A stretch of 33,936 nucleotides of DNA, taken from the NCBI GenBank assembly GCA_019311115.1, contig JAFDDB010000023.1, forward strand, positions 1-33,936. The letters run 5' to 3'. Shown here piece by piece: positions 4,459 through 29,362 of the stretch (its first letter is position 1; the number at the start of each line of letters is the position of its first letter). The notes beneath the pieces are model-generated. The model was not told the origin of the DNA and did no database searches. It saw only the letters and a list, made by a program, of their open reading frames with translations. A program made the translations under genes and the position numbers. The DNA comes from Deltaproteobacteria bacterium (GTDB lineage: Bacteria; Myxococcota_A; UBA9160; SZUA-336).

Positions 4459-4534
4459 TGGTAGGCGGGAGAGGACTCGAACCTCCGACCAACGCCTTGT
4501 AAGGGCGCCGCTCTACCAACTGAGCTACCCGCCC
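4459..4534 (-). tRNA. tRNA-Val (anticodon TAC)
   Basis: On the minus strand this folds into a complete 76-base tRNA with encoded CCA (4461-4459). The acceptor stem is GGGCGGG paired with CCCGCCT (one G-U). Positions 8-9 are TA. The D stem GCTC/GAGC closes a loop with GG. The anticodon stem GCGCC/GGCGT closes the loop CTTACAA, giving anticodon TAC at 34-36. The T arm is GGAGG-TTCGAGT-CCTCT. The discriminator base is A. It lies downstream of lon on the same strand. Confidence 0.95.
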
Positions 4535-27980: not shown

Positions 27981-28424
27981 ATGCAGGTGTGGATTCAGTG
28001 CTGTCGTCAGGGACTCGCGCTGCTGATGGCAGTGGCAACGGTCGCGATCGGACCCATGGTCAGCTCGGCGCGCGCCGAGCTCGTGACGACCGCCTCGATG
28101 CTGGCTCCGGCCGACGACCTCGAGGGAGCGCGAGATCGCGTTGCGGCCGTGCTGGCTCGCGACGACGTGCGCGAACAGCTCTCGGCGTTCGGCCTGGATG
28201 CGGACGAGACCGGCGCTCGGGTCGCGAGCCTTTCCGATGCGGAGATCGCGGAACTGGACGCCCGGCTGGCATCGCTCCCCGCGGGCCAGGACTTCGTGGC
28301 CGTGGTCGGAAGCCTGCTCATCCTGACCGTACTCGTTCTCTTCCTGACGGATGTATTCGGATGGACCGACGTCTTCTCGTTCGTCAATCCGCAGTTCGAG
28401 GTCAAGCGAACCGACCGGCGCTGA
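27981..28424 (+). CDS. PA2779-like small membrane protein
   Basis: This 147-residue protein is recognised as PA2779 family. It has a cleavable signal (cut likely after SSARA, about residue 32) and a helical domain with RDRVAAVLARDDVREQLSAFGLDADE and RVASLSDAEIAELDARLASLPAG (99-102). A transmembrane segment follows (about 105-122), then a conserved end with two TDVF units (123-126 and 129-132, TDVFGWTDVFSFV). GGAGG lies seven bases before the ATG. It is followed by the PA2778-like cysteine peptidase, the same order as in Pseudomonas aeruginosa (PA2779, PA2778). The function of the pair is unknown; it may be a substrate or partner of the peptidase. Confidence 0.82.
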   Translation: MQVWIQCCRQGLALLMAVATVAIGPMVSSARAELVTTASMLAPADDLEGARDRVAAVLARDDVREQLSAFGLDADETGARVASLSDAEIAELDARLASLPAGQDFVAVVGSLLILTVLVLFLTDVFGWTDVFSFVNPQFEVKRTDRR

Positions 28425-29362
28425 GGCGGTCCCGCGCAGCAATTCTGGTCCTCTTGCTGTGCGGAACCGGCGCGGTCGCCTGCGGTACGCCGCAGGTCGA
28501 TCGCGCCCTCGCGTCGCGTGCAGGCGAGCCCGAGCAGCTGCTCGACGTTCCCTTCCACCCGCAGCGACGCAACCACTGCGGCCCCGCGTCGCTGGCCATG
28601 GTGCTCGAGTGGAGCGGCGACTCCGTCACTCCCCAGGAGCTCGACGAGACCGCCTTCACCGCGGCGCGCGAAGGCAGCCTCCAGCTCGACATGCTGAGCG
28701 CTGCGCGCCGCCGCGGACGGCTGGCCTACCCGGTGCGCGACCTGGCCTCGCTGCTCGCGGAGCTCGACGCGGGACACCCGGTGCTGGTGCTCCAGAACCT
28801 GGGCCTGCGCTGGTACCAGGTCTGGCACTTCTCCGTCGCCATCGGGCACGACCTGCAGCGCGGAGTCCTCATCCAGCACACCGGACGCGACCAGGCGAGG
28901 CCGATCTCACTGCGCACGTTCGAGCGCACCTGGGACCGCGCCGACGACTGGGGACTCGTCGTCCTGCCGGCCGGCACGCTCCCCGCGCGCGCCGACGAGC
29001 CCGTCTACCTGAGGGCGGCGCTGGGACTCGAGCTCGCCGGACGCCCGGTCGAAGCCGCGGCCGCCTTCGACGCCGCGACCGCGCGCTGGCCCGACAGCCT
29101 GGGCGCCTGGATGGGCCTCGGCAACGCGCGCTACGCCTCGGGTGACCTCGACGGCGCGGAGCGCGCCTTCCGCAGCGCGGCAGAGGCACACCCCGGGAGC
29201 GGTCCGGCGCTCAACAACCTGGCGCAGGTGCTCTTCGAGCGCGGCCACGGCGACGACGCGCTTGAGACGATCGACCGCGCCATCGCGCTCGGCGGCCCAC
29301 GCCGCGCCACCTACGAGCGAACGCGGGACGAGATCCGGGAGAGTCACCAAGCCACGCCGTAG
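28361..29362 (+). CDS. PA2778-like C39-type cysteine peptidase lipoprotein with TPR
   Basis: This 333-residue protein has a basic N-terminus, a hydrophobic segment ending in lipobox GAVAC (Cys41), and a C39-like papain-fold domain. The likely catalytic residues are Cys73 (RRNHCGPASLAMVLEW), His156 (VWHFSVAIGHD) and Asp164. The C-terminal part (about 215-333) has tetratricopeptide-like repeats (GAWMGLGNARYASGDLDGAERAFRSAAEAHP, then ALNNLAQVLFERG). The start is uncertain. The ATG at 28361 overlaps the PA2779-like gene by 64 bases and has no good ribosome site; the only alternative near the stop is a CTG at 28421. It is probably anchored on the periplasmic side, next to its PA2779-like partner. 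Confidence 0.8.
   Translation: MDRRLLVRQSAVRGQANRPALRRSRAAILVLLLCGTGAVACGTPQVDRALASRAGEPEQLLDVPFHPQRRNHCGPASLAMVLEWSGDSVTPQELDETAFTAAREGSLQLDMLSAARRRGRLAYPVRDLASLLAELDAGHPVLVLQNLGLRWYQVWHFSVAIGHDLQRGVLIQHTGRDQARPISLRTFERTWDRADDWGLVVLPAGTLPARADEPVYLRAALGLELAGRPVEAAAAFDAATARWPDSLGAWMGLGNARYASGDLDGAERAFRSAAEAHPGSGPALNNLAQVLFERGHGDDALETIDRAIALGGPRRATYERTRDEIRESHQATP

Follow-up and report, generated by a model that had tools for sequence, protein, structure and literature searches.

The PA2779-family and PA2778-family genes that lie side by side in the window (the whole stretch of DNA analysed here, 33,936 nucleotides of contig JAFDDB010000023.1 from a deltaproteobacterium) form a real, strictly co-distributed two-gene module, and their pairing is not incidental. 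C39 peptidases have been described chiefly as components of peptide exporters that cut leaders; the pair described here consists of a periplasm-facing C39 enzyme (PA2778) with a substrate candidate (PA2779) named by co-occurrence alone. PA2778 may be a dedicated envelope peptidase that cuts PA2779 at a double glycine beside the membrane, a reading drawn from several independent kinds of evidence, to which we give a probability of about 0.5. Both families have already been named by NCBI after genes of Pseudomonas aeruginosa, which presumably stand in the same order as in the window, and PF20332 in Pfam is DUF6627. No functional study of either was found in the open-access literature under the gene or family names; the first-pass annotation, which had called the system undescribed, was thus right about its function and not about the families.

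According to the preferred reading, PA2779 would leave the cytoplasm through Sec and stay anchored in the inner membrane through its C-terminal helix, which would place the double-glycine motif immediately outside that membrane. PA2778, a putative lipid-anchored, extracytoplasmic cysteine peptidase of C39 fold dedicated to PA2779, would grip the amphipathic helix ahead of the motif and cut at Gly-Gly/Ala/Ser, parting the helical domain from its membrane anchor, and the TPR domain may hold the substrate or a further partner. Dedicated cutting would explain the one-way dependence between the families (PA2779 multiplies, and occurs without the peptidase only in two cases at contig ends), and cutting of PA2779 by PA2778 would also account for the conservation of the cysteine and for the kinds of residue permitted at the motif. 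This account leaves a conserved tail on PA2779 unexplained and must cope with a lipoprotein +2 residue suggestive of the outer membrane; cutting could precede the departure of the lipoprotein from the inner membrane.

The gene pair and its distribution

The features of the two genes are as follows.

27981..28424, + strand: PA2779-family (DUF6627) exported protein, 147 aa (translation from ATG, profile scores)
27981..28076, + strand: signal peptide, residues 1-32 (sequence, alignment)
28077..28274, + strand: helical extracytoplasmic domain, residues 33-98 (alignment; helices in the model of a relative)
28275..28289, + strand: LPAGQ, the window form of [LM]PA-G-[GAS], proposed peptidase site (alignments)
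28296..28346, + strand: hydrophobic membrane segment, approximately residues 106-122 (sequence reading, family-wide hydropathy)
28347..28376, + strand: TDVF...TDVF tail, family form TDILGxTDVFPF (alignment; missing in short and split forms)
28361..29362, + strand: PA2778-family lipoprotein cysteine peptidase, C39 + TPR, 333 aa from ATG (profiles)
28481..28483, + strand: lipoprotein Cys41 (alignment)
28538..28975, + strand: C39 peptidase domain (profile, predicted model, fold matches)
28577..28579, + strand: nucleophile Cys73, with the oxyanion-hole Gln five residues N-terminal (alignment)
28826..28828, + strand: catalytic His156 (alignment)
28880..28882, + strand: Thr174, aligned to the C39 catalytic Asp (alignment; Ser in nearly all main-branch relatives)
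28991..29302, + strand: TPR domain (profile, predicted model, fold matches)

Translation confirmed both genes, as well as the LPAG (residues 99-102) and the two copies of TDVF reported in the first pass. Both proteins exceed the curated cut-offs of their families and are thus members: PA2779 scores 101.4 bits against NF033919 (cut-off 40) and 83.5 bits against PF20332 (cut-off 27), and PA2778 scores 297.2 bits against NF033920 (cut-off 150), covering positions 2-253 of the 255 in the profile, i.e. both the C39 and the TPR half. PA2778 also matches PF13529 (39.6 bits, cut-off 24) and, barely above threshold, PF03412 (22.4 versus 22). The predicted plan of PA2779 is a signal peptide, a helical domain and a single C-terminal membrane helix, and the alanine preceding the presumed signal-peptide cut is kept in all 86 aligned copies. 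The lipoprotein cysteine of PA2778 is present in 83 of 84 aligned rows, the remaining row having a gap. The start of PA2778 is unsure: translation may begin within the first gene, at an ATG (28361), or at a CTG at 28421 that overlaps the stop of the first gene (28421-28424) and would yield a lipoprotein signal peptide of normal length. A non-ATG start with translational coupling to the first gene is thus possible in the window. The window also carries, at 4459-4534 on the minus strand, a tRNA-Val gene with anticodon TAC.

The arrangement first noted in the window, an exported, membrane-anchored protein directly upstream of a C39-TPR lipoprotein, is borne out by the profiles and by its recurrence in relatives. 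A peptidase scan of the contigs of named genomes yielded 323 relatives, from which 80 loci were kept, and PA2779 lies immediately upstream on the same strand in 77 of them. The exceptions are two loci truncated by the contig start (L018, L045) and one with PA2779 downstream (L033).

Co-occurrence had been set beforehand as a test of the pairing, and each family was accordingly sought separately in 376 genomes of two classes, with PA2779 called by its curated cut-off and the peptidase by E ≤ 1e-20. The pairing came through clearly: both families occur in 89 genomes, PA2779 alone in 2, the peptidase alone in 0 and neither in 285, figures that include, in each sample, a centre genome picked for having the pair (G235, G237). 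Fisher's test gives p ~4e-85 for these 376 genomes with relatedness between genomes uncorrected. In both PA2779-only genomes (G258, G457) the gene lies at a contig end. In the class of Sulfuricella sp. T08 (G235; 229 genomes), PA2779 is above cut-off in 57 genomes and the peptidase is found in 55, all of them with PA2779 and 54 of them above the peptidase cut-off; PA2779 lies at most 1.5 kb upstream of 57 of the 59 peptidase pieces, a linkage count that omits a genome with a sub-threshold PA2779 match (G311, 24.5 bits), scored as having neither family. In the class of Desulfosarcina alkanivorans (G237; 147 genomes), 34 genomes have PA2779 above cut-off, and the peptidase is found at E ≤ 1e-20 in precisely these 34 (in 22 of them above its own cut-off); 29 of 35 peptidase pieces are linked to PA2779 within 1.6 kb. 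In the phylum of the window itself, the family is rare, with matches above cut-off in 2 of 235 genomes, both from the same family as the window, along with two weaker matches.

Linkage alone is insufficient to explain this co-occurrence, because two genomes (G495, G588) carry the families on separate contigs (four contigs of 173-473 kb) and because additional PA2779 copies lie away from the peptidase, in genomes that possess one. The ratio of PA2779 to peptidase copies is, for example, 4 to 1 in G552 and G619. No conserved third gene was found beside the pair in 101 loci analysed with a crude gene caller: the two families appear in 78 and 73 of these loci, against 17 for the next most frequent cluster, an ABC ATPase. 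No relative of the pair was confirmed on viral contigs. In tblastn searches of plasmids PA2779 had no match, and two PA2778 records were recovered, both annotated with an adjoining PA2779-family gene.

A few loci depart from the usual arrangement. Second peptidase copies with no adjoining PA2779 found occur at L136 5286-6362 (G401) and at the partly masked L167 3781-4806 (G610), each in a genome with a linked pair elsewhere. Genome G246 carries two paralogues of PA2779 that end differently at the C terminus (L138 6025-6913 and L139 5282-6784), each adjoining a different small lipoprotein that does not resemble the C39 enzyme; these neighbours are possibly a second partnership. At L144 5001-6397 (G432) the peptidase gene is fragmented and the adjoining PA2779 has alanine for the first motif glycine. 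The same motif letters occur at L219 (G291), where the peptidase is matched over its full length.

A three-gene version exists in the class of Desulfosarcina. In 13 of its 34 positive genomes, the peptidase is split into a short C39 gene and a separate TPR lipoprotein gene. In 12 of these genomes, both genes share a contig with a divergent PA2779 and lie downstream of it. The matches are separated by about 1.5 kb in G477; in G485, PA2779 stands at the end of one contig and the C39 and TPR genes on another; in G532, the two halves share one frame with a single stop between them. An additional split locus was found in G247 (L141), and this locus together with L149-L162 shows the combination of divergent PA2779, C39-only peptidase and separate TPR protein. 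The split C39 proteins (four scanned) align to the start of the NF033920 profile, at most to positions 2-155, and the split TPR proteins (two scanned) to its end, at most to 155-255. All six scanned halves fall below the NF033920 cut-off, so such proteins may lack PA2778-family annotation. The main and split branches are separated with support of 100/99 in the C39 tree (62 rows), which is flagged because its joining of long branches may be false, and of 100/98 in the PA2779 tree (66 rows). Each tree was rooted at its midpoint and built with alternate main-branch rows. Given the split loci and the presence of one such branch in both trees, PA2779, C39 and TPR are three modules that belong together, and the enzyme and its partner appear to have diverged together.

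Active site, localisation and predicted structure of PA2778

The catalytic residues are kept in nearly every copy. Among main-branch rows with a residue at the position in question, the cysteine is found in 91/92, the histidine in 93/93 and the oxyanion glutamine in 91/92, and in the split branch each is present in 14/14 (the masked L167 row is left out of these counts). The window protein carries all three in the alignment. The catalytic aspartate of C39 enzymes, whose position was also taken from alignments, is absent after the histidine of the window protein, which has threonine there; 92 of the 93 main-branch rows with a residue at this position have serine, and the split branch is mixed (Asp in 3/14). 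Since the position is not kept as aspartate, PA2778 may rely on a Cys-His dyad or bring in a different residue. An Asn/Asp exchange near the histidine distinguishes the main and split branches and was considered as a stand-in for the missing aspartate.

The residue after the lipidated cysteine bears on where the enzyme resides. By the +2 sorting rule for lipoproteins, residues other than aspartate of the kind found here point to the outer membrane. The +2 residue of PA2778 is Ala, Gly, Ser or Thr in 82 of 84 rows (Ala in 67) and never Asp, which suggests an outer-membrane location, far from a substrate in the inner membrane. A partnership that involves no cutting is a tentative possibility on these grounds: PA2779 might anchor PA2778 to the membrane, activate it or inhibit it as part of a stable complex that spans the periplasm, with the double glycine as a structural hinge or binding loop. 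The one-to-one dependence of the families fits such a complex equally well, the missing aspartate is in keeping with it, and the +2 residue makes a bridge between the membranes conceivable. However, a pure scaffold would not need the cysteine, histidine and glutamine that are so consistently conserved, and the excess of PA2779 over peptidase copies in some genomes fits substrates better than subunits.

The model of the mature window peptidase, built from 79 sequences, is confident (pLDDT 94.4). Its first half is confidently predicted to have a C39 fold, matching 6mpz, a double-glycine protease with bound leader (Z 15.6, rmsd 2.3, 134 residues), as well as 3k8u (Z 15.5) and 3erv (Z 16.9), and its second half matches TPR proteins. 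The pseudomurein endoisopeptidase PeiR is also among the fold matches (8z4n, Z 15.7).

This last match and the TPR domain, which suggests the binding of other proteins, are what speaks for PA2778 acting on other envelope proteins or on the cell wall, with PA2779 as a chaperone or reporter. Such a role seems unlikely, given that the 101 loci showed no conserved neighbour besides the two genes and that the extra PA2779 copies track the presence of the peptidase. Moreover, expression of a PA2779-family gene of P. stutzeri DSM4166 is reported to rank within the top 3% in all four samples (PMC10155442), higher than is typical of an adaptor that serves a minor enzyme.

Joint structure prediction, proposed at the outset as a check on the pair, delivered the enzyme and not its contact with the partner: the C39-TPR model is confident, but PA2779 is not confidently placed. 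The two proteins were folded as one chain using the genes of relatives that stand in a shared frame with one stop between them (A6). In this read-through model the peptidase is confident, the PA2779 helical domain has block means of 71-88, and the motif, membrane helix and tail have pLDDT values of 59-69, with the motif as a loop rather than a strand. Its fold comparison is filled by TPR and C39 entries. Three OGT rows with ranges reaching residues 1 and 16 were considered as a sign of docking and rejected, because ranges stretched in a similar way also appear in the peptidase-only model. Mean-field couplings from 143 pairs (effective number 116) revealed no coevolution between the proteins above noise, and the best cross-protein couplings include signal-peptide residues.

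The double-glycine motif and the tail of PA2779

The window protein reads LPAGQD, with L99-G102 followed by the hydrophobic segment and then by TDVF twice. The family was characterized from 152 loci reduced to 143 non-redundant pairs, none of them from L018, L045 or L033. The motif has Pro in 141 of the 143, Ala in 140 (Ser in 3) and a first Gly in 141, with Ala in its place in two (L219 and L223). At the second place Gly occurs in 105, Ala in 18, Ser in 17, Gln in 2 (the window and L203) and Glu in 1 (L213), so Gly, Ala or Ser stands there in 140/143, and together with the first Gly in 138/143. The window protein lacks the Gly-Gly/Ala/Ser form and, having Gln at the second Gly, represents its family poorly. 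Among the 13 split-branch copies that reach the motif (the masked copy L140 is left out), Pro is found in 0, Ala in 6, Gly at the first place in 12 (Ala in 1), and Gly and Ser at the second place in 12 and 1, respectively. In a diverse set of 19 members, only two columns are invariant, a glycine of the helical domain and the first motif glycine.

The motif is thus better read as a double glycine, [LM]PA-G-[GAS], than as LPAG, because the split branch retains the glycines and loses the proline. The site originally proposed for the peptidase survives in its position, the stretch before the membrane helix being the likeliest cleavage or recognition site, and changes in the element that is kept. 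The alternative site, the TDVF repeats, fails as a general recognition element, being absent from short and split forms.

Substrates of C39 enzymes typically terminate in Gly-Gly, Gly-Ala or Gly-Ser (PMC6363468), and the aligned motif residues of PA2779 match this same set. The residues preceding the motif have an amphipathic pattern, as in double-glycine leaders, with hydrophobic residues (VLIMFWC) at columns 106, 103 and 99 in 131, 143 and 142 of the 143 pairs. If the cut is placed after the second glycine, the hydrophobic residues fall at -5, -8 and -12, with Pro at -4 and Asp/Glu at -7 (123/143), giving Gly-[GAS] and a hydrophobic -12; if it is placed after the first, they fall at -4, -7 and -11, with Ala at P2 and a polar -12. 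The positions given for the LahT leader are -4, -7 and -12 (PMC6363468), and across the 143 pairs neither register reproduces the full double-glycine leader rule (hydrophobic -4, -7 and -12 before Gly-Gly/Ala/Ser). A purely structural role is another possible reason for the conservation of small residues ahead of a helix.

The motif is followed by the membrane helix and then by a basic tail (Lys/Arg 301 versus Asp/Glu 107 in 142 copies, one of the 143 having been dropped for too short a tail). A median of 33 residues follows the motif, and 13 of the 142 copies, short forms, have no more than 27. Most members of the main branch strongly conserve the TDILGxTDVFPF tail, so the C-terminal piece is there more than a discarded anchor; the tail is absent from short and split forms, and the existence of short forms shows that it is not a universal part of the protein. 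In 20 genomes searched with a C-terminal profile of the long-tail forms, every match with E 1e-5 or better fell at a PA2779-family locus; weaker matches also occurred. At this threshold there is thus no sign of a general sorting tag.

The conserved tail and the length that follows the motif are compatible with a bacteriocin-like precursor, in which the N-terminal helical domain would be the leader and the C-terminal hydrophobic peptide a product residing in, or acting on, a membrane; LahT, a C39 enzyme, is described as holding a helix before the double glycine (PMC6363468). This is nevertheless quite unlikely, as the helical domain is also conserved in all forms and the tail is missing from the short and split ones. 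A resemblance to Nif11 leaders was judged to be chance: the NCBIfam model matched 1 of 19 members, with E 0.11 and short of the motif. The helical domain also gave weak RuvA_C-like matches in 2 of the 19 members (best E 0.029).

Comparison with known systems

The closest working analogue of PA2778 is FapD of the Pseudomonas Fap amyloid system, likewise a Sec-exported C39 protease facing the periplasm (PMC5557850) and the one periplasmic example that was found. FapD is active in the periplasm and requires its cysteine; the same 2017 paper presents the Fap proteins as lacking a canonical C39 recognition sequence and describes the target of FapD as unclear (PMC5557850). FapD is encoded in the fap operon; PA2778, by contrast, is lipid-anchored, carries a TPR half and has a one-gene partner to itself. 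The C39 domains of LahT, ComA and PCAT1 share the predicted fold and the Cys-His-Gln residues with PA2778, and their type of substrate shares with PA2779 a Gly-Gly/Ala/Ser motif after an amphipathic helix. These domains are, however, parts of ABC transporters and have a catalytic aspartate, where PA2778, an exported lipoprotein-TPR fusion, has Ser or Thr.

The preferred reading, dedicated cutting of PA2779, has other parallels outside the C39 family. Sortases and their LPXTG substrates combine an LP-x-x-G motif before a membrane helix, a basic end and a dedicated cysteine enzyme (PMC3237569). PA2779/PA2778 resembles this system in these respects and differs from it in the C39 fold, in a motif without threonine and in a split branch without proline; no LPXTG motif was found in the 143 pairs, all of which have Gly (or Ala) at the place of the threonine. 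The closest genetic analogue is rhombosortase with its target: in the GlyGly-CTERM/rhombosortase system, protease and target are co-distributed and, if there is a single target, adjacent, as here (PMC3237569), and MYXO-CTERM and myxosortase are co-distributed like the present pair (PMC11980579). GlyGly-CTERM, MYXO-CTERM and PA2779 all have a motif, a membrane helix and basic residues (PMC3237569, PMC11980579). Rhombosortase and myxosortase are intramembrane proteases serving tags on many proteins (PMC3237569, PMC11980579), in contrast to PA2778, a C39 lipoprotein whose candidate tag occurred only on PA2779-family proteins (20 genomes, E ≤ 1e-5). The enzyme co-distributed with PA2779 is of C39 type and not of the rhomboid family.

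It is highly improbable that PA2778 is a sortase-like transpeptidase on a C39 fold, which would cut PA2779, keep the helical domain as a thioester and transfer it, thereby moving an abundant domain onto a new envelope acceptor (a lipid, the wall or another protein); we know of no protein-anchoring system of this kind in Gram-negative bacteria. Cutting of PA2779 by PA2778, if confirmed, would provide a function for two conserved families in at least Pseudomonadota and Desulfobacteria-type bacteria. The pair has a predicted two-residue cut site and a partner made by a single gene, and its naturally split version could serve structural studies. As for P. aeruginosa itself, PA2779 is reported to be transcribed divergently from PA2780 (bswR) (PMC3985676), and the start codon of PA2778 is reported as lost in clone CHA (PMC3697988).
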